A DNA stretch of 64,000 nt. Origin: a virus. Location of the stretch: positions 1 to 64,000 of the IMG/VR virus record IMGVR_UViG_3300017767_005578; one strand, given 5' to 3'. This document shows positions 496 to 48,647 of this stretch, in pieces. Within the stretch, counting starts at the first letter, position 1. The number at the start of each line of letters is the position of its first letter. The notes under the pieces are model-generated. The model worked only from the letters and a program-made list of their open reading frames with translations. It was not told the origin of the DNA and made no database searches. Made by a program: the position numbers and the translations under genes.

Positions 496-560
496 TTAAC
501 AGGTTGTAAACGCAACCTCGTTCCTCGGTAGTCGCTCAAGCTCGTTTACAAGGGCGTTAG
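496..560 (-). other. structured intergenic element, copy A
   Basis: This 65-bp element sits between the stop of the gene at 569 and the ATG at 481. The segment TTGTAAACG (504-512) is perfectly complementary to CGTTTACAA (543-551) across a 30-nt loop. The ends are TTAACA and CGTTAG, which pair weakly. Copy B (6532-6596) has the same total length, loop length and ends, about 25 of 30 identical loop bases, and two compensatory changes in the stem. That pattern means the fold, not just the sequence, is kept. It may act as RNA (5' leader) or as a folded DNA recombination site. No U-run follows, so it is not a standard terminator. Confidence 0.7.
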
Positions 561-568
561 TGGTAATA

Positions 569-754
569 CTACTTACTACCAAAATATTTTTTAGGTATCA
601 TACATTTTTCTATAAGTCTTTTATGAACTTCTTCTTGTGAAGGAATCAATTCAAGAAAGCTTTTTAAAGAATCAGACATACCTAAATCAATAGGTTTTAT
701 TTCCGTACTACCACTAACATTATTTAAATTCAATTTATCTTTCGCTTTGCTCAT
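569..754 (-). CDS. small hypothetical protein (61 aa)
   Basis: A 61-residue charged protein starting MSKAKDKLNLNNVSG. It contains LIPSQEEVHKRLIEKCMIPKKYF, which looks helical. No family is recognised. It is flanked on its 3' side (8 bases) by structured element A and on its 5' side by a 70-base spacer carrying a small hairpin, so it looks like one unit of a series of tiny genes separated by folded spacers. The start at 754 is an ATG preceded by an A/T-rich leader. Confidence 0.55.
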   Translation of the reverse strand: MSKAKDKLNLNNVSGSTEIKPIDLGMSDSLKSFLELIPSQEEVHKRLIEKCMIPKKYFGSK

Positions 755-824
755 TCTAAACAGTATTTACATTTATCATTGTAATCACATTAAAACGTGT
801 TACAAAAACGTGTATAGGTAATTA

Positions 825-953
825 TTACCCTTGCTTTTCTGCGTTATCAAAGGCATTATCTATCCATTCTTGTATGGTTTGCCCTTGTGGTATAAATAAT
901 TGGTTGTTTTTATAAAGTGCATACATAAGTATTTCAAATTGTTCTTTCTTCAT
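825..953 (-). CDS. small hypothetical protein (42 aa)
   Basis: A 42-codon frame, ATG at 953, TAA at 825. The product begins MKKEQFEILMYALYKNN and contains LFIPQGQTIQEWIDNAFDNA. This recalls short phage proteins of similar pattern but I cannot name a family. The A-rich leader (TTAAAAATATAATT) before the ATG fits the other genes of this arm. Its spacing, between hairpin-bearing spacers of 60-70 bases, matches its neighbours and supports its being real despite the small size. Confidence 0.5.
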   Translation of the reverse strand: MKKEQFEILMYALYKNNQLFIPQGQTIQEWIDNAFDNAEKQG

Positions 954-1015
954 AATTATATTTTTAAGTTATTAAATCGGGCAAAAACTACCCATACACA
1001 ATGCGTTGTACGCAA

Positions 1016-1207
1016 TTATTCGGGAAACCATTCAGTTATTGTTGTATCAACAAACTCTTGTCCACCAACTGCATTTATCATATCATTAGTATAAGCAACC
1101 GCTTCGTTGTACCTAATAAATACTTGGTCATCAGAAGTTGCATAAAAACTCAGAAGTTGTTGTCCAAGTTCTGTTTCAAAAATCTCATTAGCTTTTTCTT
1201 GTGTCAT
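1016..1207 (-). CDS. small acidic hypothetical protein (63 aa)
   Basis: The frame reads MTQEKANEIFETELGQQLLSF and ends TTITEWFPE. It is acidic and soluble, with no family recognised. An in-frame ATG at 1234 would add nine residues (MLYAVKFTT). I prefer the start at 1207 because an A/T-rich leader like that of the neighbouring genes precedes it, but the choice is not certain. It is flanked by hairpin-containing spacers, including the element at 1244-1318. Confidence 0.5.
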   Translation of the reverse strand: MTQEKANEIFETELGQQLLSFYATSDDQVFIRYNEAVAYTNDMINAVGGQEFVDTTITEWFPE

Positions 1208-1243
1208 TGTCGTAAATTTAACTGCGTACAACATTGCATAAAG

Positions 1244-1318
1244 TTAATACGCTATGATGGTCAGTACTTTAATTTAAAAGTTTAGGTAAAGCGTACTAAC
1301 CTTATACTTTACCGTTAG
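1244..1318 (-). other. structured intergenic element, family member D
   Basis: The spacer holds a perfect 7-bp inverted repeat, GGTAAAG (1285-1291) and CTTTACC (1307-1313), ending with CGTTAG like copies A and B. Its left end, TTAATACGC, is shared with the short element at 6794-6826. It lies between the methyltransferase-like gene (stop at 1331) and the next small gene. I group it with copies A and B on shared ends and position, not on stem sequence, which differs. Confidence 0.45.
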
Positions 1319-1330
1319 TTAGCAATAACA

Positions 1331-1969
1331 CTAAGTCCATTGCTCTGCCATAGCTTTTGCAATTCCTGGATATGTCTTACTTCTTAATTTAGCCCTATCT
1401 TTTGTTGGGGGTAGTTTATTTTGTCCTGTGTCTGTTTGATTATCCCAATATTTTTTTCTTCCAAATATTCTAGGTTCAATATATTTTGTTCCATTAAGAT
1501 TTGGAAGCCCTTTAAGCCACAAACACGTTCTTTTACTTGCGTTATCTCCAAATTCATAAGGCTGTATTGTTTGATTTGGTTTTTTAAACATTGTGCTTAA
1601 TTTACCTACTGGATTTTCTATTGCTATTTTTGGTATTCCTGAGTTCCATAGTTTTTTAACAAAATCAACAGCTTCTATCCTAGCTTTTTTTCTTTTTGTT
1701 CCAACAAGTGTTCCTTTTTTTACTTTTTGGTGATAAGGAGGTTCTTTGTAAGCCCATTCTGCACTACAAGTTAAATAAGTGCAATCAGGAAAAAATATTC
1801 CCATATCCCATTTTTTTAAATTTATTGCTTCAAAAACATCCATTTGTAAATGCCATTCAGGATGACCTCCGCTACAAGGAATTATGTCACAAGAAAAAGC
1901 CTCATGTCCTCGCTTTCTCAACTCTATTGTTACCGCTTGGCTCTCTTCGCAGCCTACTAATATTTTCAT
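1331..1969 (-). CDS. cytosine-DNA-methyltransferase-like protein
   Basis: A 212-residue protein of a phage family related to C5 cytosine methyltransferases. The N-terminus (MKILVGCEESQAV) matches the SAM-binding motif region of that family. The segment DCTYLTCS (about residues 61-68) corresponds to the catalytic PC motif, and IENP (about 116-119) to the ENV motif. The C-terminal RSKTYPGIAKAMAEQW is typical of the family end. It lacks the long target-recognition region of a full Dcm enzyme such as the one at 7692-8579, so specificity or activity may differ. Likely role: modification of phage or host DNA, perhaps to escape restriction. The family match comes from recall of motifs; activity is inferred. 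Confidence 0.7.
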   Translation of the reverse strand: MKILVGCEESQAVTIELRKRGHEAFSCDIIPCSGGHPEWHLQMDVFEAINLKKWDMGIFFPDCTYLTCSAEWAYKEPPYHQKVKKGTLVGTKRKKARIEAVDFVKKLWNSGIPKIAIENPVGKLSTMFKKPNQTIQPYEFGDNASKRTCLWLKGLPNLNGTKYIEPRIFGRKKYWDNQTDTGQNKLPPTKDRAKLRSKTYPGIAKAMAEQWT

Positions 1970-1984
1970 AATTTAATTTACTAA

Positions 1985-6531: not shown

Positions 6532-6596
6532 TTAACAAGTTGTAATTGCAAGCTCGTACCTCGCCAGTCGCACAAGCTCAATTACAAGTATGTTAG
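6532..6596 (-). other. structured intergenic element, copy B
   Basis: Second 65-bp copy of the element at 496-560. The stem is TTGTAATTG (6540-6548) with CAATTACAA (6579-6587) across a 30-nt loop, bounded by TTAACA and TGTTAG. Here the outer TAACA/TGTTA pair as well. Compared with copy A, two base pairs of the stem are changed on both sides so that pairing is kept. It sits 6 bases after the stop of the gene at 6603 and 37 bases before the ATG at 6494, leading into the basic-protein genes. Confidence 0.7.
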
Positions 6597-6602
6597 CAAA
6601 CA

Positions 6603-6782
6603 TTACTTACTTGCTTCATATCTTTCATTCCAACAAGGGAAACACAACCCATCATTTAAGTCTTGTACTTTATTTCCACACTTACACGTAAGCAACGATT
6701 TGCTAACATTAGCTATACGTAATTGCTCTTCGTAAGCATCTATAATTCTTTGTGCTTCTAAATATTGTTCTTCTGTTATCAT
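6603..6782 (-). CDS. small zinc-ribbon-like protein (59 aa)
   Basis: The product starts MITEEQYLEAQRIIDAYEEQ, a helix, and ends with a Cys4 motif, TCKCGNKVQ then GLCFPCWNERY, expected to bind zinc. I start it at ATG 6782, after an A-rich leader (AAAAACTAAACTT). A longer frame from upstream would translate the repeat element at 6794-6826 and is unlikely. No family is named. It is framed by the short element upstream and copy B downstream. Confidence 0.6.
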   Translation of the reverse strand: MITEEQYLEAQRIIDAYEEQLRIANVSKSLLTCKCGNKVQDLNDGLCFPCWNERYEASK

Positions 6783-6793
6783 AAGTTTAGTTT

Positions 6794-6826
6794 TTAATAC
6801 GCAACTACGCATAGCCACGTCCGTTA
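6794..6826 (-). other. short repeat element, family member E
   Basis: A 33-bp intergenic segment beginning TTAATACGC and ending CGTTA, the same ends as the element at 1244-1318. Its internal part (GCAACTACGCATAGCC) resembles a repeat that I recall being frequent between genes in flavobacterial genomes. It lies 11 bases upstream of the ATG at 6782. The relation to copies A and B rests on the ends and the location only. Confidence 0.35.
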
Positions 6827-8638: not shown

Positions 8639-9415
8639 TTAATCCCATTGTTCTGTTATCTTTATCTGTTCGATTTTAAAATACACTCTTGATATGTGTC
8701 TGTAGTCATTTAAAAAAACAGGAACTAATTTTTTCTTATTCCTTTCACCTATTTTTATAATTTCATCAACTATCTTTTTGCTTCTAAAATCTTCCAGTTT
8801 TTTAATTCCGTAATGTCTCCTGACAAAATCTAATCTTTTCCATCGTTTGTGTCCCATTTCTCCTAAAGTTATTATTAACCCTTTTTTAGCCATTTTTATA
8901 CATAAATCAAAGCAATCAAAAGCAGAGCCAAATGGATCTATATCTATTAAATCAAACTTTGCGTTTTCGTAGTATAATTTGCACACTAGCTTTTCAGCTT
9001 TTTCAGAATAGTATGTATTAAATCTTTCGTCTATATCGTTTGTGTAAAGTTCATCTACTTTACCTTCGTAATAAGATTTAGCACCAGAAAATAGGTCTAA
9101 AACTATTTTGGGTTTTATTTGTTCTAAAAACAAATCATTGTGTAAGTACTTATCTTCTCTATGAGGATCATTATAAGTAACACCATTTTTTTTAGATAGC
9201 CTTTTCATTTTAATAGAAACGCTTACCAGTTCTCTGTATAAAAACTTAGCAATGTCTTTGTTTTTAAAGCCTTTATCCTTAAGATTTAACGCCCATTCAA
9301 TTTCTTTTTCTGTCCATTTTCTTGGGTTGTTTTTAGTTAAGCCACTGTTTTTTGTTTCTTTACCCATATACTTTTTAGGTAAATAAAATTGCTCGTCTAG
9401 TTCAAATAGTTTCAT
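8639..9415 (-). CDS. SAM-dependent methyltransferase with DPFGS motif
   Basis: The N-terminal 80 residues hold a SANT/Myb-like or HTH segment (RKWTEKEIEWALNLKDKG ... NKDIAKFL). The catalytic part has VLDLFSGAKSYYEG (SAM motif I), then LYTNDIDERF (acidic motif II), and DLIDIDPFGSAFD (motif IV) near residue 160. DPFGS replaces the DPPY or NPPF of DNA amino-methyltransferases and resembles the DPFGSP of Trm1 tRNA guanine-N2 methyltransferases. It could therefore act on RNA or on DNA. The leader TTTAAAAACAAACAGTC before the ATG is shared with many genes in this arm. Confidence 0.7.
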   Translation of the reverse strand: MKLFELDEQFYLPKKYMGKETKNSGLTKNNPRKWTEKEIEWALNLKDKGFKNKDIAKFLYRELVSVSIKMKRLSKKNGVTYNDPHREDKYLHNDLFLEQIKPKIVLDLFSGAKSYYEGKVDELYTNDIDERFNTYYSEKAEKLVCKLYYENAKFDLIDIDPFGSAFDCFDLCIKMAKKGLIITLGEMGHKRWKRLDFVRRHYGIKKLEDFRSKKIVDEIIKIGERNKKKLVPVFLNDYRHISRVYFKIEQIKITEQWD

Positions 9416-9427
9416 GACTGTTTGTTT

Positions 9428-9694
9428 TTAAAGTTCTAATAATTCTGATTCCACTTCCTCCAGATTCCACTTTTCAATTAGCTTGTTTAATCGCTTTTCA
9501 AAAGAATTAAATGTTTTAGAAGTATGAACCATTTCACCATTAAATTCAATGCTAAATCCATTTGCCCATGAATGATTTTGCCTTTGAATTAATGTTGCCA
9601 TTCTAATATCATCATCCCCTGTAATTGCTTGAAAATTTTCATTAGATAATGTTATTACAAATCCCTTTTTTAATCTTGTTTTTAAATTTTCCAT
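9428..9694 (-). CDS. hypothetical protein (88 aa)
   Basis: Starts MENLKTRLKKGFVITLSNEN, followed by a beta-rich core (GDDDIRMATLIQRQNHSW ... FSIEFNGEMVHT) and an acidic helical end. I chose ATG 9694, preceded by the leader ATTAAAAAACAAACAATC; an upstream ATG at 9721 belongs to the recurring ATGTGTGACNTT motif and would add nine unlikely residues. No family is recognised. Confidence 0.55.
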   Translation of the reverse strand: MENLKTRLKKGFVITLSNENFQAITGDDDIRMATLIQRQNHSWANGFSIEFNGEMVHTSKTFNSFEKRLNKLIEKWNLEEVESELLEL

Positions 9695-9724
9695 GATTGT
9701 TTGTTTTTTAATGTCACACATTTA

Positions 9725-10267
9725 TTATATGGCTCTATAATATATAAAAGCTCTTATCCTATCACATATAGACTGTTCTAGTTCAGAAGCCAGGTCATAA
9801 AACTCATGACCTAAGTTACCTAAACAACCGTCTGAGAATAAGCTAAAATGATATTGAGGAGTTATGGTTTCGTATAGTCCTTCGTTAATCTTATTTGAAA
9901 TAATACACACATCTAACCTTTGTCTTATCTCCAATTGTTTTACGCTTTCAGTATCTATTGTTTTATACATTTCAAAACTAACTTTAACGTGGTTTTTTCC
10001 TTGTGTAAATTCAGCAAATGGAATCCTGTGTTTATTGTCATCTATCCAATCAAAGTCACACCCTTCAATCTCAGCTTCTGTTATTTTAGAATATATTTTA
10101 CTGATTGTTTCTCTTAGTATGTCTTCAAACTGGTTAAGAATAGTTTTATTGATCTTGTTAGCGTTTGCTTTTTCTTGTTCAATTTCTGAATGAGTTTTAG
10201 AAATTGTTGTGAAGATGTTGTCACTTGCAACATCCTGTTCTTTAAATTTTAAAATTATTGTTTTCAT
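9725..10267 (-). CDS. hypothetical protein (180 aa)
   Basis: Begins MKTIILKFKEQDVASDNIF, then a charged helical region rich in Asn, Lys and Ile (KINKTILNQFEDILRETISK), followed by a beta-rich domain (GCDFDWIDDNKHRIPF, RQRLDVCIISNKI). Its N-terminal layout resembles that of the upstream neighbour 10264-10731 (MKT, beta strand, helix of similar spacing), so the two may be diverged duplicates. The stop overlaps the repeated motif TAAATGTGTGAC. Function unknown. Confidence 0.6.
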   Translation of the reverse strand: MKTIILKFKEQDVASDNIFTTISKTHSEIEQEKANANKINKTILNQFEDILRETISKIYSKITEAEIEGCDFDWIDDNKHRIPFAEFTQGKNHVKVSFEMYKTIDTESVKQLEIRQRLDVCIISNKINEGLYETITPQYHFSLFSDGCLGNLGHEFYDLASELEQSICDRIRAFIYYRAI

Positions 10268-10731
10268 GATTGTTGTTTTTTAATTGTTTGAATTATATCT
10301 CGTTCCATTATTTTTAAAACATCATCTACTGTTTTAACTCTAGAGCCATGTAGTTCAAGATAATAGTCTCCAGTGTATGTTGTGTATTTACTGTCTTTAA
10401 AATCTCTGTTATTTTCAGGTATTATTTTAAGATTATAAACATTACCATTAATAACAGCTTCAGCTTTGCTACCCATACACTCGTTTGAGTATTTAATAAA
10501 CAGGCAAGGCTCTTTAAATCCGAATATATGTGCAACATTTAATTCTCTGTTTATGCTTTCCACAAAGTCACAAAGAATTTTATTGTAGATTTTTGTTGAC
10601 TTTTTGTTGATAGCTTCGGTTATATTAATTTGATTCTGTTCATCATTAGCTGTGTTGATAAAGCTATTTATTAATGAATTTTCTTCTGCGTGGACACTTT
10701 CCACTTCTACTGTAAAGTTGTAAGTTTTCAT
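10264..10731 (-). CDS. hypothetical protein (155 aa)
   Basis: Begins MKTYNFTVEVESVHAEENS, with a helical middle (IYNKILCDFVESINREL) and a beta-rich C-terminal half ending MERDIIQTIKKQQS. Layout parallels the downstream gene 9725-10267, which starts 4 bases before this gene ends, so the pair is probably co-translated and perhaps paralogous. No family is recognised. The leader contains three repeats of AATC before the ATG. Confidence 0.6.
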   Translation of the reverse strand: MKTYNFTVEVESVHAEENSLINSFINTANDEQNQINITEAINKKSTKIYNKILCDFVESINRELNVAHIFGFKEPCLFIKYSNECMGSKAEAVINGNVYNLKIIPENNRDFKDSKYTTYTGDYYLELHGSRVKTVDDVLKIMERDIIQTIKKQQS

Positions 10732-10750
10732 GATTGATTGATTTTAATTG

Positions 10751-11047
10751 TTATCTACTTTTTATGTTGTCAATTTTTGATGTACCAGAGTTGATCATAT
10801 CAAAAACTTTATTCCAGTTACTGTCATCAGCTTCCCATTCGATGTCATCTATATCAAATTCTATTTGAAAGTTTCTATAGGAATCTCTATGAGAGTTAAG
10901 TTTAAAATCACCGTCATCATTTTTCTTGAGGGTAATTTTATGTCTGTTATCACACATACAAGATATAAGGTTAATAACTACTTCTCTTGCATTTTCTTTT
11001 ACCTCCAGCTTCGGAGGGTTGTTTAGTAATTCTGTGTATTTGTCCAT
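10751..11047 (-). CDS. hypothetical protein (98 aa)
   Basis: An acidic protein starting MDKYTELLNNPPKLEVKENA and containing a likely beta-hairpin core (HKITLKKNDDGDFKLNSH) and an acidic stretch (DIDDIEWEADDSNW). It has no membrane or metal motif and I recognise no family. It is preceded by the leader CTTAAAAACAAACAATC and by the recurring TAAATGTGTGACC motif, which ends the next gene. Confidence 0.55.
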   Translation of the reverse strand: MDKYTELLNNPPKLEVKENAREVVINLISCMCDNRHKITLKKNDDGDFKLNSHRDSYRNFQIEFDIDDIEWEADDSNWNKVFDMINSGTSKIDNIKSR

Positions 11048-11073
11048 GATTGTTTGTTTTTAAGGTCACACAT

Positions 11074-11682
11074 TTAGTAATATTGTTCTCCATCTTCTGT
11101 AAATTCATACTCATTAGCTATAATACTCTCCTCTATAGCTTCTCTAGAAGTATAGTACTCGTATCCTTGTTCTAGTGAATCGTATATCTTGTTACATATA
11201 TCTTCGTAGTGTTCTCTTATTTCATATAAGATGTCTTCGCAGATGTCTTCTATATTGGAATAGTTTTTATATTGCCAATCGTTAGTAAATTCAGTTTCTA
11301 AGTTATCTGAATAACTTTTTGAATGGTAGTAATGTCCACTTTGTTTGAAGCTACCGTATATGTTTATATCACCGTTTTTAATTAGCTTGATAACTCTGGA
11401 CCAATTTTTTTGATATTGCTGGTTGTTATATCCTGGAGTTATGAAGTTTAGTATATCTTCGTTTGGTGATCCTTCAAACATAGCACCGTCACCTTGTGAC
11501 CAGAATCCTCTGAAATATATTTTATCAATATCGAATCCTGTTTCATCTTCCTTGTACATTTCGTATACGTGTTCCCACCAATCATAATGTGTATTAATGT
11601 CGTGAAATTTTTCAATTACTTTTTCTTGTGCTTCTTCACTAAGTTCCTTGAACTTGTAAATTTCAATTGTTTCTTTTCTCAT
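11074..11682 (-). CDS. conserved phage protein (SQGDGA type)
   Basis: A 202-residue acidic, Tyr-rich protein. It starts with EIYKFKELSEEAQEKVIEKF, then WWEHVYEMYKEDETGFDID and FRGFWSQGDGAMFEGS. This combination (ELSEEAQEK, WW, FxGFxSQGDGA) is common in an uncharacterised family seen in many phages and some bacteria. No biochemical role is known to me. A hairpin leader (11715-11751) sits just upstream of the ATG, almost identical to that before 11760-12731. Confidence 0.7.
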   Translation of the reverse strand: MRKETIEIYKFKELSEEAQEKVIEKFHDINTHYDWWEHVYEMYKEDETGFDIDKIYFRGFWSQGDGAMFEGSPNEDILNFITPGYNNQQYQKNWSRVIKLIKNGDINIYGSFKQSGHYYHSKSYSDNLETEFTNDWQYKNYSNIEDICEDILYEIREHYEDICNKIYDSLEQGYEYYTSREAIEESIIANEYEFTEDGEQYY

Positions 11683-11714
11683 GATATTTATATTTTATCC
11701 TCATTAGATTAAGT

Positions 11715-11751
11715 GTGTAACCTTGAGCGAGGATATTACTCAAGGTCACAC
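11715..11751 (-). promoter_or_regulatory. hairpin leader, copy 1
   Basis: GTGTAACCTTGAG (11715-11727) and CTCAAGGTCACAC (11739-11751) form a stem of 12 of 13 pairs with an 11-nt loop. It lies between the stop of 11760-12731 and the ATG at 11682. A second copy with changed stem bases is at 12764-12800, in the same position relative to its gene. It may be an attenuator, an RNA processing site or an operator. Confidence 0.55.
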
Positions 11752-11759
11752 ATTTATTA

Positions 11760-12731
11760 TTAAGCCCAACCCAACTTAGTAGCTAGATTAAGCATTTCAC
11801 TGTATTCTATCTTATGGCATCCTACTACCATATCTCCTGAACTATGTATAAGGTCAACACTATATACACCTATCTCAAAAGTTACACCGTTACGCTTCCA
11901 TTGTTGTCCCGTTTCAACAACGTGTTGAACTAGCTTCCAAAGTTTCTTAGCGTTATCCATAGGTACTTCTGCTCTCCTACTGGTTTCAATGGTTTCACTG
12001 TCTTTTACTCTTAACAAGTACCCTGCTACGTATGGACAGTAGCTTGTTTCGTGGTTTCTCCACTTCTCAATACCTTCTTTTGCTTCAGCTAATTCCCTAG
12101 CTTTTTTACGCTTTTCAGCTTCTATAGCTTTACGCTTATTTTCTTTTATCTTTTTTATAGCATCTTCAGATAAAAGTATTTCTAAGGGATTGTCAGAATA
12201 TATTAATTCTTTTTCTGACTTTTTGAGTTTAGATTTTAGCTTGAATATATTGGTTAAGTTAACAGCGTGTTCTATATGAGAATTTATTTCTCTAGTATAG
12301 TCATATTTTCTAGCTCTTAACTGTTTTTTAGCTAGTTCTTCAACGCTTTTAATGTGTTCACGTACATTGTTAACAAATGTTTCTTTTTCTTTAGAATAAT
12401 CATTGTCTCTATGCGTGTAGCCGTAGGGCATTTTATTAACATTTATACGTGTATAGTGACTAGGAATAGCATAACTAACGGCATTCTGTTGTTTTGCTGT
12501 TGTGTTACTATAAGAGTGATCATACCAAAGGACCAAAGTTCCGTAATCTTTGTTTTTGTGTTCTTCTGGTGTTACTATTCTAGCAATTTCAAAGTGACTA
12601 CCGTATGAGTAGATACTTTTATTGTTAAAATAGAAGCTGTTTCCGCTGTTTCTAGCGTGTTCTTGTGATTGATGCGCCCAAAGGTGAGCGATTTCATCTT
12701 TGCTTGAAAATACTTGTTTTATTCGTGCCAT
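11760..12731 (-). CDS. conserved phage protein (WAHQ type)
   Basis: A 323-residue protein with IAHLWAHQSQEHARNSG at the N-terminus followed by SIYSYGSHFEIARI, a pattern I associate with an uncharacterised phage family (WAHQ ... SYGxHFxIA). A long charged coiled-coil region follows (about residues 150-215, ENKRKAIEAEKRKKAREL), then a C-terminal domain with HETSYCPYVAGYLLRV and VPMDNAKKLWKLV. Function unknown. The hairpin leader at 12764-12800 precedes its ATG. Confidence 0.65.
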   Translation of the reverse strand: MARIKQVFSSKDEIAHLWAHQSQEHARNSGNSFYFNNKSIYSYGSHFEIARIVTPEEHKNKDYGTLVLWYDHSYSNTTAKQQNAVSYAIPSHYTRINVNKMPYGYTHRDNDYSKEKETFVNNVREHIKSVEELAKKQLRARKYDYTREINSHIEHAVNLTNIFKLKSKLKKSEKELIYSDNPLEILLSEDAIKKIKENKRKAIEAEKRKKARELAEAKEGIEKWRNHETSYCPYVAGYLLRVKDSETIETSRRAEVPMDNAKKLWKLVQHVVETGQQWKRNGVTFEIGVYSVDLIHSSGDMVVGCHKIEYSEMLNLATKLGWA

Positions 12732-12763
12732 AACTTTTATATTTTATCCTCTTAATTTTTTGT

Positions 12764-12800
12764 GTGTAACCTTAAGTGAGGATGTTACTCAAGGTTGCAC
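12764..12800 (-). promoter_or_regulatory. hairpin leader, copy 2
   Basis: GTGTAACCTTAAG (12764-12776) and CTCAAGGTTGCAC (12788-12800) can pair at 11 of 13 positions, with an 11-nt loop as in the copy at 11715-11751. It lies between the stop of 12809-13174 and the ATG at 12731. Downstream, both copies share AGGATAAAATATAAA before the start codon. Confidence 0.5.
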
Positions 12801-12808
12801 ATTTATTA

Positions 12809-13174
12809 TTAGTAAATTGTTTTAAGATAGTTTCTTAGTTCTCTCATTTCCCATGTAGCATCTTGACCAGCACAATAAGATATTCTAGCATTGCTTTTAT
12901 TATACTTAGATAAGAAGAATCTACCCAAAGCCCAATGCTGAGGAGATCTAAACAGTAAACACCGTTCTATTATTTCTTTTGTTCTATGTATACCACCTAT
13001 TTGCTGTGTTAACATATCACAAAGCTGTCTTTTAAATTCGTCTGTTAATTGAACTTTGGACCATCCTGTTGTCTTTAGATACATCCTACCGTTTAATAAT
13101 TCTTGTGCAGATGTTTGTGAACCTGCTACTTTCCATGCTTTTTCTAAACTGTCAATTTTTGTAATTCGTCCCAT
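12809..13174 (-). CDS. hypothetical protein (121 aa)
   Basis: A basic protein starting MGRITKIDSLEKAWKVAGSQ. It contains SAQELLNGRMYLKTTG and SPQHWALGRFFLSKYNKS, mostly helical with a conserved-looking Trp/Arg pattern that recalls small phage proteins of unknown function. I cannot name a family. The ATG at 13174 follows a 60-base A/T-rich spacer. Confidence 0.55.
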   Translation of the reverse strand: MGRITKIDSLEKAWKVAGSQTSAQELLNGRMYLKTTGWSKVQLTDEFKRQLCDMLTQQIGGIHRTKEIIERCLLFRSPQHWALGRFFLSKYNKSNARISYCAGQDATWEMRELRNYLKTIY

Positions 13175-14491: not shown

Positions 14492-14620
14492 TTATTCATA
14501 AGCGGAACAGTGCTTGTAATTATCCCAAATTTTAAAATGAGTTTTTTCTGAACTTGCACAGCTTGTTAAAATTAAAATTAGTGTTATAATGGCTATTGGT
14601 TTAAAAATTGTTTGTTTCAT
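14492..14620 (-). CDS. small lipoprotein (42 aa)
   Basis: A 42-codon frame from ATG 14620 with the leader TTTAAAAACAAACAAAA. The N-terminus is a clear lipoprotein signal: MKQTIFKPIAIITLILILTS ends in a lipobox, LTSC, at about residue 21. The mature peptide would be only about 22 residues (CASSEKTHFKIWDNYKHCSA and a short end) with a second Cys. Small phage lipoproteins can block superinfection by masking a receptor; that role is inferred here. Lipobox and leader make me fairly sure it is translated. Confidence 0.6.
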   Translation of the reverse strand: MKQTIFKPIAIITLILILTSCASSEKTHFKIWDNYKHCSAYE

Positions 14621-14632
14621 TTTTGTTTGTTT

Positions 14633-14788
14633 TTAAAGTTCAAATGTTTTGTAAATTCCTGTATTGAAAGGAAGCCAGATATAAAAAGTTTTATCTTTTT
14701 TGTTGTTAAAAATAGTTACCGCAAAAACTGTTTTTTGCTTCATTTTTTTTGTTATGCCCGTATGCATGAAGATTCTGATCTTTTTCAT
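14633..14788 (-). CDS. small basic hypothetical protein (51 aa)
   Basis: From ATG 14788 (leader AAAACAAACAAA) the product is MKKIRIFMHTGITKKMKQKT then a beta-rich end (AVTIFNNKKDKTFYIWLPF). Very basic at the N-terminus. A longer frame from 14821 would translate the repeated ATGTG motif and is less likely. No family is recognised. It is the gene nearest to the structured noncoding stretch 14789-15496. Confidence 0.45.
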   Translation of the reverse strand: MKKIRIFMHTGITKKMKQKTVFAVTIFNNKKDKTFYIWLPFNTGIYKTFEL

Positions 14789-41591: not shown

Positions 41592-44500
41592 ATGCCAGAC
41601 AGTATAAGTATAAATATCCCAGAATACGGTAGTTTCACTAAAGAGCAACTTCAAGAAGAGTATGGTGAAAATTGGTTACAAGCGATAGATCAGCTCAATG
41701 GAACTGTTGATGTTCCTGATTATGGTAGTTATAGCTACTCAGAATTAAAAGAATCTTATGGCGAGAACATTGAGGATGCTTTAGACCAACTTTCGGGTAA
41801 AAAAAAAGACCAAGAAGAGCCTCAAGAAGAAGTTCAAGAAGTGGTTCAGGAAGAACCTCAAGAGGTGGTTCAAGAAGATACGGAATCTGTATCGGAAGAT
41901 GGTTCTTTGGAATCTCAAGATTGGAGGGGTGAGCAAAAGAAGTCAGTAACTCCTGTTGTAACTTCTGACGAAGAGACTTTTAAATCTTTACAACAACAAG
42001 GAAGATTAGAAGAAGAGAAAAAGGAAGAGTTTTTAGAGGCTTCAGAACAAAAAGCAGAGTCTGATTTTAGACCTAAAGAAGAAAAAGGAGGTCAAGAGGC
42101 TGTTTCTAAATTTTTAACAGAAAACAATTTTAGCTCTTTAGACGCACTGCCTACTGAGTTTTTAGAAACAATAAAAGAGCAAAATCCTACTGTGTTTAAC
42201 ACAGATATAGAAAGAAATTTATACTCTGCTAGAAACGAAGAATTAACAAGCATTTCAAAATCTTATTTAGAAAACAGAAAAAATGCTATTCAATCAGAAG
42301 AAGTTTCGGCTGGAAAGACAGAAGAAGAGGCTAAGAAAATAGCAGATTTAGAGATACAAGATGAAACTGGTAGAATTGGTATTTCTAGTCTAGGGTATGA
42401 TGAAGATGAAATAAACCAATACAAAGGTGCGATAAAAAATAGGTCAAATGCTTTATTAAAAATAAGCAAGATAAAAAGAGACCCTAGTAAAAAAGCAGAG
42501 TTAGAAAAGCTACAGGAAATAGTTAAAGTTTCTGATAAAAAAATATCAGAATTAAGAGAAAACTCAGACAAGGCTTTTATAGATGAAAACGGTGATGTAA
42601 ACAAAGACCTTAAGGAGGATGTAAAGCAAAGAGAAATAGGTTTTGAAAAAGAGTATAAATCAGATTACGTTAAGCTCCATGATAGACTAAAGTTAGAGAT
42701 AGCCAAGAGAGATGCTCTTAGAGAAAACTTTGTTAAAACATTAACTCCTGAGCAGTATCAAAATTTTGGTGGAGATAAGTTTATAATAAACAAAGGAACA
42801 GATAACGAGCAAGAAAAAGGTGCTTATGCTACTGTTGATAATATACTAGGAGGTAAGGATGCTGATTATTCTGAATATTTCATGGGAGATATTTATGATG
42901 CTAAATTAAAAGCAAAATCAGAATCTTATGTAGAGGCTTACGACGATGCTGATAGAAACATCACAGCACTATCAAGGTTATTATTACTCAACGAAGACCC
43001 TGCTGCTGTAGAAAGAGGTTGGGGTACTGTTTTTAGTGCAGAGGATAGTGAGTTTTATTTACCAGGTTTAGACAAGTTTGGTGAGGTTGTTACGTCTTTT
43101 GGTGAATCTATTTATGAGGAAATAACAGGAGTGGACTACAGCTCTAATCTTGATTTTAGGCAAAATGCAGTTAATATCCTTCAAGACGAAGGAATGAAAC
43201 TGACCGAAGAGCAAATAGAAGCAGGGGAAAAGAATTTTTCAGAAAAACTAGGAGAAACTTTAGGGGTTTCAGGGGCGATAGGTTTAGAGATTCTAGCAAC
43301 TAGAAATGTTATAGGTGGCGGTTACAAGCTTTTAAACATACCTAAATATTTGTCTAAAATTTCTTACTTAAGAAAAAGCCCTAAGCTTGTTAAGTTTTTA
43401 GACAACACAGCAGAAATAGTAACAGAAGGTTTAGCTTTTGAACTTGCTGATGATAGAACAGATTTCTTCATGGGTGCGGCAGAGTCTACTTCAGCAAAAG
43501 GTTTTGATGCTTTAATAAGTAAGCTTTCCAAGTCTAAGTATGGTAAGTTCCTAAAGTACTTAGATAATTACGCAGGTAGATTTGCAAAAGAGGTTACATC
43601 AAGAACGGTTGGTGGTGTTACAGAGGAGTATGTTGGTGATTTTGTTTCTGAAGGTGTTAAGAATGGATTCTTCACAGAGGAGCAATATAAAAATGTTTTT
43701 GGAGAGGGCGAAGAAGGTGTAGAGAAGTTTTTACTTACTCTAGGGTCTGTTGGGTTTATGACCTTCCCTACAGGATTTGTAGAAGCTGCTAAGAAGAGAG
43801 CTGAAGGAGACCCTACGGGTTCTTTAGCACAAGCTATAGAGGCTTATGAGTCAGCTCAGAACCCAGAGGTTACTACTGAAAAAGTTAAAAAATCAATAGA
43901 AAATCTTACTAACACACTAAAAGGAGAAGATGTTGATTTAGAAGGTTTAACAGATGAGAAAAAATTAGAGATTATTGGTTTAGATGTTTTTGATAAGAAC
44001 CAAAGAGCAGTAGACGCTAAAGAGAAAGATGCTGAGATTGAGAAAATAGTAGGAGAAGAAGTGGAGTCAGAACCTCAAAGACTAGATGATATGTCTGAAG
44101 AGGAACTAGAGGCATACGCTAAGGAGAATGATATAGATGTATCAGAGTTAAAGAAAAAAGCGAAGGCTAAAGAACCTCAAAGACTAGATGATATGTCTGA
44201 AGAGGAGTTAGAGGTATACGCTAAAGAGAATGATATAGATGTATCAGAGCTAAAGAAAAAAGCGAAGGCTACAGAAGCTAAAACAGAAGAAGTTACAACT
44301 GAAGAAACTACTGAAGATGCTTTAACTTCTGAAACTGTAACAGATAAAAAGGGAAGAACACTTACTTATTTTGAAAATACAGAAACTAAAGACGGTATAA
44401 CAAAAACCACTTATACATTTAACAGAAGTGACAAAGATTCTTCTCAAAGAAATACAACTGGGGTTAAACCAGAAGTAGCTTTAGATAATAAAGGATATGA

Positions 44501-47500
44501 GGTAACAGAAGACTCTGCTCCAGTTGGTGCAAAAATAAATAAAGTTTTTGAAGTTAGAGTTGATAAAAACAATCCCAATAAAGCAGCTGCTACTGTAGAA
44601 TTTATATCAGAAGATGGAAAAATTTTTAGAGGTGAAGTAAAGTTAAAGCAAACACAACAAGCTACAACTGATACAACTACTGAAGAGGTTGTTGAGGAAG
44701 GTGACACATTTACTCAAGAAGAATTAGACCAAGAGATAACCAAAGATAACTTACAATCAACAATAGATAAAATAGACTCTTTACAGAAAAAGATAAGAAG
44801 TACTACAAAATCTGATCTAGGTTTTTCTGCTGCTTTGGATGCTGTTCTTACTCTTACAAAAGCAGCTTTAAAAACAACTAAAACTTTTAGAGATGCTTAC
44901 AATATTGCTGTCTCTAAATTTAGAGACCAAGACGGTTATAAAAAACTAACTGATGAGCAAAAAAACAAATTAGATTCTTTTTCTGAAAAAGAATTTAAAG
45001 ACGCTTTAAAAGAAGAGTCAGAGAAAGCAGTTGAGCGAGGTGGCACATTTAATAAAGCAAAAGAAGCGTATAAGAAGGCTGGGGAATCAGGTTTAGATAC
45101 AAAAGAATCAATTTCAGAATCTTTTAAAACAGTAGAAAGAGCAGACTGGTATAAGTCTTTAAGCAAAGAAGACCAACAAGAAATAAAGGCAGACTATGTA
45201 AATAGGCTTGTTCCGAACTTTGAATCAGAGGGTAAGCCTCCTAAAAAGAACAGAAAAGGAATACCTAAGCTTGATGAGTCTAAAAAGATTATAACCACCG
45301 AAAAGCAACAGTTAAAAAAGAGATTAATAGAGCAGAGAAAAGGTGCTAACAACTTAAGAAAATCACAACAAAAAATGATTGATGATTTGTTTGAGTCTAT
45401 AGAAACCAATTCAAAAAGCTTAACGAAAGCACAGCTAAAAGCAGCCTTAAAAAGAGCAGCAAAAGCAGACCCTGCTAAGATTAATGATTTCTTAGAATTA
45501 AGAGATAGCATAAACAAACAACTAAAAAAAGGAGAGCTAAAAGAAAAGAAAGCTGAGGCAAAAAGAATACAGTCAAGATTAAAAAGAAAAGCTAAAAAAA
45601 CTACAGGTTTTAGAAAGTCTTTAGCGTTGGATTTATCCAGGTTAAACATAAACAGAGTAGATGACATAGACGCTTTCCTAGATGCTGCTAATGGACTTAT
45701 TAAGTCTTTAGATGGTAAGGCTAGTATGAAAGATGTTAAAGATCAAACACAAGACATAATAGCTAAAGCATTAGATGCAGAAACTAAGTTTAGAGAAAAA
45801 AAACAAGAACTTATTGAAGAAGCTTTAAAAGAAGAGTATGATGCAGCAAACCTTAGCATGTCTTTTGAAGAGTATAGAAAATTAAAAGAAGAGCAATCTA
45901 AACAGGATGCCAAAGATAAAAAGTTAGAAGCAGCAGCCGAAGCTAGAGAGGATATGGTTAATTGGCTTAACTCTAGAATTGATAAGTTAAGAACTGATTT
46001 TAATGACCTAACAGACGGAATGACTGAGAGGCAAAAGGCAATCGTAAAAGATTTAATTAATGCTAAAAATCTTCTTAATAAAAAAGACGGTAAGGGAGAA
46101 TACTTGTTATTGGATAGTGAGTCTTTAATGGATTTGCATTCTGCAATAGATGAGGTTTTCACTTTTAATTCAACAGCAGGTGTTAATAAAATTGCAACAG
46201 CTTTAAAGTCAATTAAAAAAGCAGAAACATTTAGGATTAAGCTAAACAATATGATTGATGCTGGATTATTTACTAAAGGAATATTTGGTAAAAACACAGG
46301 TAACTTATCAGCTTATGCTAAAGCAGCTACAATATCAGAAAGGGCTGCTAAAGATTTTGCATCTATTCTTTTTGGAGAATATAACAAAAGCTGGAATAAA
46401 ACTCAAGAAGAAACAGAAGCATTCCTAAAAAGAAGAGCAAAAAAAAGAGATGAGCTAAAGATAAAAGAAAGACAGTCTAATAAAATTGGCGTTATATCTT
46501 GGTTAACACAAGAAGATGAAGGATTGACTGTCGAGGAGTCTAACAAAAACTTAAAAGAGAAAATTGAATCTTTAAAGAATCAGATAAAAAAATTAAAAGA
46601 AGTTGGTAGAACAAAAGGTAAGAGTTATAGGATAACTAAAAGAGCAGAAACAAGAAAGGCTGAATTATTAGAAAAAATAGTAAAAGACTTAAATTTAGAT
46701 AGTATAGAAACTAAGGTAGACCCTGTAACAGGAGAAAGTAATTTAGAAAATCTTTTAACACCTAACGAAAAGGAGTTTTTAAACTTTTTAAAAGACGAAT
46801 TTGAGCAGTTGAAAGAGCCTTTAGCAGAATCTTATCTAAACGCTAAGGGGGAAGAAATTACTTTTGTAAAAAACTACCTACCTACTTTTGCTAAAAAATT
46901 AGGTGCAAAATCTGATGTAGAACTTGATAGTGATTTTTCATCTACAGGTATGTCGGCAGATCCTTCTGGTAGAACTATTCAAAGAACAGAAGTAGATACA
47001 ACAGGAAACACTTCTTATAATTTTGATGTGTTAGGAACTACAGAAGCTGGTTATGGTCAAATATCAAATGACATTAATTCGCTTTTTGAAAAACAAGTTT
47101 TAATTAATGTTGTTAAATCTAAGCCTGTAAAAAAACTATATATACAAGAAGGTCAAGATCTAGCTGACCAGTATAATGTTTTACAAGAAAGGGTTAAAAC
47201 ATTAATTAATAAGAGAAACCCCAACTTCGCAAGAGATATTGGTCTTGCTAACGAGTATTATAGATTTGCTGAAAATGCTGTTAGAAACACTATTGCTCTA
47301 CCTCTAAGGAATACTTTTCAGTTAGCTAAACAGTTAGCTCCTATTGTTTTAAATACCGCAATAAAGAACCCTGTATTTTTTGCTCAAGGGTTTACTTTAA
47401 CAACTCTTTCAATGGGGAAAAACAGACAGTTTGTTGATGCTTTGTTAAAAAAAGCGTCAAATACATCTTTAAGGGTTTTGGAAGGAGACGAGAGTTTAGC

Positions 47501-48647
47501 AAAAACAAAATCATTAGCTGAATACATTCAAGGTAAGGTAATGAGGGGTGAAACTCTAAGTAAAATAGAAAAAAAGTTTTTATCTAAAATAGGGGGAGGT
47601 GCTTTAACTTTTGCGGATAGGTTAGCCAGTCAAGGCTCTTGGCTTTCTTTCTACATGGCAGAGAGAGCAAAACAAGAAAAAGGAAATAAAGACTGGTCTT
47701 TTGACATAGAGGAGGAGTCTAAAAACCCAAACACAGCAGCGGCAGAGAAGGCTAATGTAGAATCGGATTGGGTCAACAACAAATCAGATGTTACTACAGC
47801 TCCTGAAGAATGGTCGAAGCCAGGTGTTCATTCAAATATAAAACGAATATTTTTCTTATTTAAAAGTTTTGCTATTAACCAAACTTATAATGCAGTTTTA
47901 GATATTAGAAACATAGCTTACGGTGTAGGTGGTAAAGGTGAAATGACTACTAAACAAAGACAGCAAGCAGTCAAAGCATCAACATCAGGTCTTGTGGGTG
48001 CTTTAGCTTCTATGTGGATGTTTGAGATGATTAAGTCTAGCTTGGTGAATCCTATGTTGGATGAAATAGTAGAGTCTTTGTTCGATATAGATGATCCAGA
48101 TGAAGATAAAGAAGTTTTTGACGAAGACGCTTTAGCAGAAAACAGTAAGGATGCTTTATTAAAAGCCTCTTTAGATTTAGCTATTGGTGGCTGGCCCGAT
48201 ATTGCAGGTCCAACATATCTAAAACAACAGCTTAATAAACACTTTTTTATTAATCCTGCTAAAGAGAAATATGAAAAAATGAAGGCTGATAACGAAGCGT
48301 TAAATTTAGATGAAAAATTAGAGCCGTTTAAAGAGTGGGACAATAAGGTTTTTTATGATAAATATGAAGTTCCTGGTTCTATTGGTTTGTTTAAATCGTA
48401 TACAGAGCAAACGCTTAAAAATGCACAAATAATTTCAGGCGAAAAGTATATACCTTCTTATGATGATGTTTATGACGAAGAAACCCTTGTTGATTTAGGA
48501 AGCGAAGGCGAAACATTGGCTATGTTAAATTTCCTTGCGTTAGTAATGCAACATGGAGATTTAAAACTTCTTACAGACAGGGCTATTAAAAACAAAGAAA
48601 AACAAATAAAAAGAGAGTCAGAGCTGAGAAAGAAAGAAAATAAATAG
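41592..48647 (+). CDS. giant virion (ejection) protein, 2351 aa
   Basis: The largest gene of the window. The N-terminus has two short beta-hairpin-like repeats (IPEYGSFTKEQLQEEYGENW; VPDYGSYSYSELKESYGENI). Long charged coiled-coil regions alternate with Ala/Gly-rich hydrophobic stretches (LGVSGAIGLEILATRNVIGG; LTLGSVGFMTFPTGFVEAA). A 34-residue repeat, LDDMSEEELEAYAKENDIDV, occurs twice in tandem (about residues 827-894). The C-terminal 450 residues (TFADRLASQGSWLSFYMAE, then FFLFKSFAINQTYNAVLD) resemble large polyvalent phage proteins injected with DNA. No RNA-polymerase or lysozyme motif is seen. Probably forms the inner core or the ejection channel, like T7 gp16 by place and size. Confidence 0.6.
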   Translation: MPDSISINIPEYGSFTKEQLQEEYGENWLQAIDQLNGTVDVPDYGSYSYSELKESYGENIEDALDQLSGKKKDQEEPQEEVQEVVQEEPQEVVQEDTESVSEDGSLESQDWRGEQKKSVTPVVTSDEETFKSLQQQGRLEEEKKEEFLEASEQKAESDFRPKEEKGGQEAVSKFLTENNFSSLDALPTEFLETIKEQNPTVFNTDIERNLYSARNEELTSISKSYLENRKNAIQSEEVSAGKTEEEAKKIADLEIQDETGRIGISSLGYDEDEINQYKGAIKNRSNALLKISKIKRDPSKKAELEKLQEIVKVSDKKISELRENSDKAFIDENGDVNKDLKEDVKQREIGFEKEYKSDYVKLHDRLKLEIAKRDALRENFVKTLTPEQYQNFGGDKFIINKGTDNEQEKGAYATVDNILGGKDADYSEYFMGDIYDAKLKAKSESYVEAYDDADRNITALSRLLLLNEDPAAVERGWGTVFSAEDSEFYLPGLDKFGEVVTSFGESIYEEITGVDYSSNLDFRQNAVNILQDEGMKLTEEQIEAGEKNFSEKLGETLGVSGAIGLEILATRNVIGGGYKLLNIPKYLSKISYLRKSPKLVKFLDNTAEIVTEGLAFELADDRTDFFMGAAESTSAKGFDALISKLSKSKYGKFLKYLDNYAGRFAKEVTSRTVGGVTEEYVGDFVSEGVKNGFFTEEQYKNVFGEGEEGVEKFLLTLGSVGFMTFPTGFVEAAKKRAEGDPTGSLAQAIEAYESAQNPEVTTEKVKKSIENLTNTLKGEDVDLEGLTDEKKLEIIGLDVFDKNQRAVDAKEKDAEIEKIVGEEVESEPQRLDDMSEEELEAYAKENDIDVSELKKKAKAKEPQRLDDMSEEELEVYAKENDIDVSELKKKAKATEAKTEEVTTEETTEDALTSETVTDKKGRTLTYFENTETKDGITKTTYTFNRSDKDSSQRNTTGVKPEVALDNKGYEVTEDSAPVGAKINKVFEVRVDKNNPNKAAATVEFISEDGKIFRGEVKLKQTQQATTDTTTEEVVEEGDTFTQEELDQEITKDNLQSTIDKIDSLQKKIRSTTKSDLGFSAALDAVLTLTKAALKTTKTFRDAYNIAVSKFRDQDGYKKLTDEQKNKLDSFSEKEFKDALKEESEKAVERGGTFNKAKEAYKKAGESGLDTKESISESFKTVERADWYKSLSKEDQQEIKADYVNRLVPNFESEGKPPKKNRKGIPKLDESKKIITTEKQQLKKRLIEQRKGANNLRKSQQKMIDDLFESIETNSKSLTKAQLKAALKRAAKADPAKINDFLELRDSINKQLKKGELKEKKAEAKRIQSRLKRKAKKTTGFRKSLALDLSRLNINRVDDIDAFLDAANGLIKSLDGKASMKDVKDQTQDIIAKALDAETKFREKKQELIEEALKEEYDAANLSMSFEEYRKLKEEQSKQDAKDKKLEAAAEAREDMVNWLNSRIDKLRTDFNDLTDGMTERQKAIVKDLINAKNLLNKKDGKGEYLLLDSESLMDLHSAIDEVFTFNSTAGVNKIATALKSIKKAETFRIKLNNMIDAGLFTKGIFGKNTGNLSAYAKAATISERAAKDFASILFGEYNKSWNKTQEETEAFLKRRAKKRDELKIKERQSNKIGVISWLTQEDEGLTVEESNKNLKEKIESLKNQIKKLKEVGRTKGKSYRITKRAETRKAELLEKIVKDLNLDSIETKVDPVTGESNLENLLTPNEKEFLNFLKDEFEQLKEPLAESYLNAKGEEITFVKNYLPTFAKKLGAKSDVELDSDFSSTGMSADPSGRTIQRTEVDTTGNTSYNFDVLGTTEAGYGQISNDINSLFEKQVLINVVKSKPVKKLYIQEGQDLADQYNVLQERVKTLINKRNPNFARDIGLANEYYRFAENAVRNTIALPLRNTFQLAKQLAPIVLNTAIKNPVFFAQGFTLTTLSMGKNRQFVDALLKKASNTSLRVLEGDESLAKTKSLAEYIQGKVMRGETLSKIEKKFLSKIGGGALTFADRLASQGSWLSFYMAERAKQEKGNKDWSFDIEEESKNPNTAAAEKANVESDWVNNKSDVTTAPEEWSKPGVHSNIKRIFFLFKSFAINQTYNAVLDIRNIAYGVGGKGEMTTKQRQQAVKASTSGLVGALASMWMFEMIKSSLVNPMLDEIVESLFDIDDPDEDKEVFDEDALAENSKDALLKASLDLAIGGWPDIAGPTYLKQQLNKHFFINPAKEKYEKMKADNEALNLDEKLEPFKEWDNKVFYDKYEVPGSIGLFKSYTEQTLKNAQIISGEKYIPSYDDVYDEETLVDLGSEGETLAMLNFLALVMQHGDLKLLTDRAIKNKEKQIKRESELRKKENK
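44070..44273 (+). repeat. tandem 102-bp coding repeat (2 copies)
   Basis: Bases 44070-44171 and 44172-44273 are near-identical, period 102 (34 codons), encoding EPQRLDDMSEEELE(A/V)YAK and the following SAP- or Rho-N-like helix pair. High DNA identity suggests recent duplication and possible copy-number variation. Confidence 0.8.

Follow-up and report, generated by a model that had tools for sequence, protein, structure and literature searches.

Paired hairpins in a probable flavobacterial podovirus as likely fixed docking sites for mobile gene cassettes

The window analysed here, a 64,000-nucleotide stretch of a virus record of 64,031 bases (IMGVR_UViG_3300017767_005578), contains two 65-nt hairpins that very probably serve as fixed attC-like docking platforms for mobile gene cassettes, with the recombinase presumably acting in trans. 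Comparison with related contigs revealed a covarying structure, boundaries at G|TTA, exchange of the adjoining DNA among relatives, a match between the start of each cassette and its own distal end, and an antisense orientation of the cassette genes. A podovirus infecting flavobacteria is the probable source: the terminase shares 31% identity with the one in Flavobacterium phage elemo, and minus-strand genes make up the left arm.

Anatomy and conservation of the hairpins

Both fixed sites, referred to here as anchors, lie on the plus strand. Anchor A (496-560) comprises an R'' box (TTAAC, 496-500), the L'' arm TTGTAAACG (504-512), a 30-nt loop (513-542), the L' arm CGTTTACAA (543-551) and a right box, G556|TTAG, with the predicted cut between G556 and T557. 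In anchor B (6532-6596) the L'' arm TTGTAATTG (6540-6548) and the L' arm CAATTACAA (6579-6587) enclose a loop of the same length (6549-6578), and the right box is G6592|TTAG, with the predicted cut between G6592 and T6593. An earlier note, made from the letters of the sequence, had described two such copies between genes, and its description matched exactly: the stems differed at two positions, both with a compensating partner, and the loops at 5 of 30. Both copies are intergenic relative to the open reading frames (ORFs), each immediately 3' of the stop codon of one minus-strand ORF and immediately 5' of the next. Against shuffled sequences, copy A did not stand out in folding energy (z -0.8) and copy B did so modestly (z -2.9), so the evidence for a hairpin is comparative rather than thermodynamic.

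A pattern derived from the loop matched 45 IMG/VR stretches, of which about half were true homologues, and the same site was found at about two dozen IMG/VR loci. Across 17 distinct sites, 96.8% of cells paired, against 87.1% when shuffled. Twenty-three cells had changed on both sides, compared with 7.4 in shuffles and 0-2 in slid controls, and compensatory changes occurred at four of the nine stem pairs. The earlier proposal that folding matters thus held up in further homologues; neither homologues lacking compensation nor a restriction of copies to coding frames, the two outcomes named as arguing against it, was seen. A covariance model run on the window returned just copies A and B (E 5e-21 and 5e-20), both of which were in its training set.

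The segment AGTCGC in the loop was unchanged in 17 of 17 sites. The C-G pair of the AAC/GTT boxes was kept in 14, and the GTT was missing in 3 of the 17. The anchors have the parts of an attC site, namely outer AAC and GTT boxes, an inner stem and a terminal loop. Their R boxes fit the consensus RYYYAAC/GTTRRRY loosely, and several attC sites of cassettes fit it exactly (GCCTAAC/GTTAGGC). A loop motif, TCGTNCCTC, considered as common to anchors and cassette attC sites was dropped, as it was present in just two non-anchor attCs.

Searches for the site in other collections gave no relatives. A site-specific 21-base pattern had no match in 84,980 bacterial genomes, the covariance model had none in 295 Bacteroidia genomes (a set without a positive control genome), and blastn against isolated phages and plasmids returned chance matches only. 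No Rfam covariance model matched the hairpin at E<=1. The earlier statement that no named family with this sequence was known is borne out in part, by this result and by the lineage-specific loop; it does not extend to the architecture, since TAACA...GTTA is that of an integron attC.

Other repeats were noted in the same window. An 83-nt direct repeat (11680-11762 and 12729-12811, 83% identical) adjoins two minus-strand ORFs and holds an inverted repeat, ACCTTGAG...CTCAAGGT in one copy and ACCTTAAG...CTCAAGGT in the other; a shared leader or regulatory hairpin is possible. A T-rich repeat around TTTCATGATTGTTTGTTTTT (9410-9459, 9689-9738, 10241-10287, 10705-10775, 11021-11067 and 14615-14664) sits where several minus-strand genes begin and may be a translation-start or promoter sequence that they have in common. 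Tandem repeats at 44069-44272 (2 x 102 nt) and 41799-41877 (12-nt unit) lie within a 2351-aa ORF (41592-48647).

Exchangeable inserts and their cassettes

When the window was aligned with its relatives, homology reached the last bases of the site, broke at G|TTA and resumed at a fixed place to the right, and between these points the relatives held different DNA. In nearly all inserts both ends fell on the same base, G|TTA, with unrelated sequence beyond, so that the insertion boundary is that of an attC site. The earlier suggestion of a folded single-stranded recombination site agrees with this result, as the site is a precise G|TTA boundary for exchangeable cassettes. In every relative, the anchors themselves kept to the phage flank on their left and were not carried as the terminal site of a moving cassette.

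The insert at locus A (557-1984, plus strand) is a cassette array of 1428 bp. It is absent from L007 (0 bp) and exchanged for others in L026 (274 bp), L042 (496 bp), L170 (524 bp), L036 (698 bp), and L019 and L039 (2456 bp). The unchanging flank of anchor A bears a conserved minus-strand ORF (134-481; 115 aa, hypothetical). Phage sequence restarts at 1985 (TTAACAAGTC) with a second conserved minus-strand ORF (1985-2632; 215 aa), which has a GroES-like match at its C-terminus, and the anchor was also recovered from 9 of 9 IMG/VR contigs encoding this flank gene. At locus B, the insert is a single cassette of 231 bp (6593-6823, plus strand) with an antisense ORF for a hypothetical protein (6603-6818), after which phage sequence restarts at G|TTATCTAG; the insert measures 368 bp in L039/L043 and 1079 bp in L016/L033. 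Both loci occurred together on five contigs, the window counted. Scans with the proteins flanking the two loci found no relatives beyond those found before.

Inserts consist of one or more small gene units, most of them closed by an attC-like hairpin and then G|TT. Unlike the anchors, these attC sites do travel, at the end of their cassette. Four cassettes, all on the plus strand, make up the array at locus A. Cassette A1 (557-812) holds an antisense ORF for a hypothetical protein (569-754), and its right boundary is uncertain, reading G|TA and not G|TT. Cassette A2 (813-1005) likewise holds an antisense hypothetical ORF (825-953); the 40 bp at its distal end (968-1007) are identical in L038, where they close another cassette. 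Cassette A3 (1006-1314) carries an antisense hypothetical ORF (1016-1234), whose true start is perhaps nearer 1207, and probably a long attC at about 1224-1316. Cassette A4 (1315-1984) encodes, again antisense, a DNA methyltransferase (1331-1969; phrog_757), and its own attC seems to have been lost, as in L019/L039. The single cassette at locus B probably has a long attC at about 6693-6823 that extends over the 5' half of the cassette's ORF, and the same bases may thus serve both coding and recombination.

With one internal boundary at G|TA and a methyltransferase cassette without an attC, the array in the window is partly decayed. It still has at least two attC sites with cassettes and no intI, the composition of a CALIN (a cluster of attC sites lacking an integrase), and it is a weaker example than L016, L037 and L042 because some of its attCs have decayed.

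Individual cassettes recurred in different contigs. L086 and L092, whose contexts are unrelated, share a cassette of 99.5% identity over 395 bp that is bounded by G|TT on either side; the identity begins at CG|TTAGGC, and the next cassettes diverge past ACCG|TTA. A second cassette is common to L030 and L050 (99.1% over 347 bp), where it stands behind different anchors. The first bases of cassettes matched their own distal R'' box at 5.17 of 7 positions, compared with 3.10 of 7 for the boxes of other cassettes (0 of 20,000 permutations, p=5e-5), as predicted by a circular cassette closed at G|TT.

We propose that the 65-nt element would play the part of attI, as a landing point for cassettes in this phage lineage. 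In the cell the site would fold as a single-stranded DNA hairpin, a recombinase would swap strands at G|TTA in the right-hand box (window plus strand), and a circular cassette ending in its own attC would be joined in there. Because each cassette ends in its own attC, cassettes would stack rightward of the anchor. Points that weigh against this reading are the scarcity of canonical IntI (1 of 295 Bacteroidia genomes), the loose fit of the anchor R boxes and the three sites without GTT, the unexceptional folding energy of copy A, the invariance of a loop segment, a rare trait for an attC, and, within the window, the G|TA boundary and the final cassette without an attC.

The recombinase and alternative explanations

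The present record and 18 others that carry the site, many of them fragments, gave no match to a tyrosine recombinase (PF00589), and the arrays thus have no intI beside them as a complete integron does. Another 17 records carrying cassettes or attC included two with such an enzyme; the complete genomes of phages P12002L and JQ, which belong to these 17, had no match. As the phage encodes no tyrosine recombinase, the enzyme is presumably supplied by the host and acts in trans. Among 295 Bacteroidia genomes, one encoded a canonical IntI above the cut-off, and the first 20 kb of the contig in question showed no array that clearly matched. Bacteroidota proteins of ~390 aa resembling TIGR02249 were considered as integron integrases and rejected: they scored below the cut-off, model positions ~180-239 were unaligned, and no convincing attC was seen around them. 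We also noted tyrosine recombinases of roughly 270-400 aa that were closer to the IntI model than XerC/D (about 100-135 bits; L133-L140 and L143-L155). Almost every Bacteroidota genome with cassette junctions encoded such a protein. The middle of the IntI model is unaligned in these proteins, and no array was found beside them. They are candidates for the missing enzyme.

A rival candidate is encoded by the phage. A gene for a small serine recombinase (Resolvase, PF00239; 3257-3952, minus strand) was present in 10 of 10 contigs of the A/B lineage, always between the two loci, and its product could exchange cassettes at double-stranded sites, the hairpin then being just the inverted repeat of such a site. 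We consider this improbable, since the complete isolates P12002L and JQ have antisense cassettes of this kind without the gene, and stem covariation and the own-end match across the circle junction are attC traits. In addition, PMC9892861 reports that IntI1 recombines attC sites of Polaribacter phage P12002L, with the bottom strand preferred. It is from these assays, together with the lack of the serine recombinase in P12002L and JQ, that we infer an integron-type tyrosine recombinase.

Still less probable is ordinary homologous recombination between similar intergenic sequences, with the hairpins as regulatory or terminator elements at gene borders. Recombination among phages is frequent, certain cassette attCs are alike enough to permit it, and attC sites have been proposed as weak terminators (PMC9892861), yet this process predicts neither boundaries on the same G|TTA base nor cassette starts that fit their own distal box. 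It may add to the exchange. A role for the hairpin as leader, riboregulator or small RNA in the phage operon is highly improbable despite its covarying stem, invariant loop segment and intergenic place in a co-directional operon, because Rfam gave no match, copy A folds no better than shuffles and homology ends at one set base within the element, past which the DNA differs, although a secondary effect on RNA may exist. Two of the suggestions in the earlier note are likewise not supported: the constant feature is a boundary in the DNA, irrespective of the gene that follows, which does not suit a noncoding RNA leader, and the same type of site occurs at several unrelated loci with different inserts after each, which does not suit a packaging hairpin.

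Gene orientation, cargo and comparison with known systems

Downstream of the junction CGTTAGGCACAATTAAAA, viral contigs had an antisense gene in 61 cases, a sense gene in none and no gene in 8; the stop codon of the antisense gene usually lay 10 nt inside the cassette. Viral loci with the identical 18-mer gave 30 antisense and 0 sense. By contrast, the same junction in bacterial genomes (Flavobacteriaceae and relatives) was followed by 14 sense genes, 1 antisense gene and 2 cases of none, a small sample of 15 loci with a clear gene, in which 2 of the 17 matches (L122 and L127) were in Gammaproteobacteria and may be chance. The sample was small because exact R-box patterns are nearly empty in bacterial genomes. 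At the bacterial junctions, a start codon was usually located within about 45 nt downstream. The sole bacterial exception by junction motif was an antisense cassette on a Saprospiraceae MAG contig (L115) that may be of phage origin and have been binned with the MAG.

As the junction motif had been derived from phages, the count was repeated with a finder based on attC anatomy. It gave 71 antisense to 1 sense in viral loci, and 54 to 1 in the subset of 35 loci unselected by the junction motif. Phages TJE1 and H101 gave no information as an orientation control, since a simple finder did not clearly recover the attCs published for them. The antisense layout was also present in the isolated phages JQ and P12002L. 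The arrays thus differ in gene orientation (61:0 and 54:1 antisense) from a complete integron, in which sense genes are read from Pc. Genes antisense to the attC run in the same direction as the phage operon, so they are probably read by phage transcription, by read-through and with no integron promoter.

Cargo was assessed from 98 distinct ORFs adjoining a junction, a few of which are not cassette genes (e.g., the flank gene at 1985-2632). The long ORFs were mostly DNA-modification enzymes, including C5 and N6/N4 methyltransferases and a Mom family protein, with some weak PAPS-reductase-like matches, and most of the short ones were hypothetical. What is established about phage methyltransferases and Mom makes a counter-restriction or counter-defence role probable for this cargo.

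The arrangement provides for modular swapping of anti-restriction and other accessory genes at fixed phage sites. Natural empty and occupied states are visible within one lineage, and integron-type cassettes are seen moving between phages. The reversal of orientation (61:0 antisense to sense in viral loci, 1:14 in bacterial loci) sets the phage cassette pool apart from the bacterial one. Which enzyme moves Bacteroidota cassettes, and whether phages carry cassettes between hosts, are now open to test.

The anchors resemble the integron attC (59-be) in their AAC...GTT boxes, inner stem and loop, compensated stem and G|TT boundary; they differ in staying with the phage flank, without travelling on a cassette, and in the invariant AGTCGC. 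With attI they share a fixed position at the end of an array and the addition of neighbouring cassettes at G|TT. An attI site is not a hairpin and adjoins intI and the promoter Pc, whereas the anchors are attC-like, lack intI and have genes running toward the site. Chromosomal cassettes of Flavobacteriaceae and relatives (L114-L130) have the junction CGTTAGGCACAATTAAAA and a similar right arm, but their genes are sense where those of the phages are antisense.

Tenacibaculum phage JQ (MT002873) also carries antisense cassettes with attC, methyltransferases included, but no copy of the anchor and no PF00239 recombinase. P12002L is alike in having two loci that open with one shared sequence and hold antisense cassettes, and unlike in that this sequence is unrelated to the anchor of the window. 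A ~60-nt sequence occurs twice in that phage (L142; 29165-29248 and 37199-37305), each time directly before an antisense array, and resembles an anchor of another, unrelated kind, which suggests that the two-platform layout arose more than once. The attC directions of P12002L are given as divergent in PMC9892861.

Phage-borne CALINs are already known from Qi et al. 2023 (PMC9892861), the available text of which reports attC-type sites and DNA methyltransferase cassettes in virulent phages without an integrase, and describes no fixed hairpin platform, empty or occupied states or antisense rule. A description of these three features was not found in the open-access literature searched, and priority is unproven. 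What we regard as new is the fixed hairpin platform, two per genome, with reversed genes, and not phage attC clusters themselves. With about even confidence, we further suggest that Bacteroidota phages share a cassette system of their own, with fixed hairpin platforms and a circulating pool of reversed genes rich in DNA modification, which phage transcription would express and an enzyme acting in trans would move.
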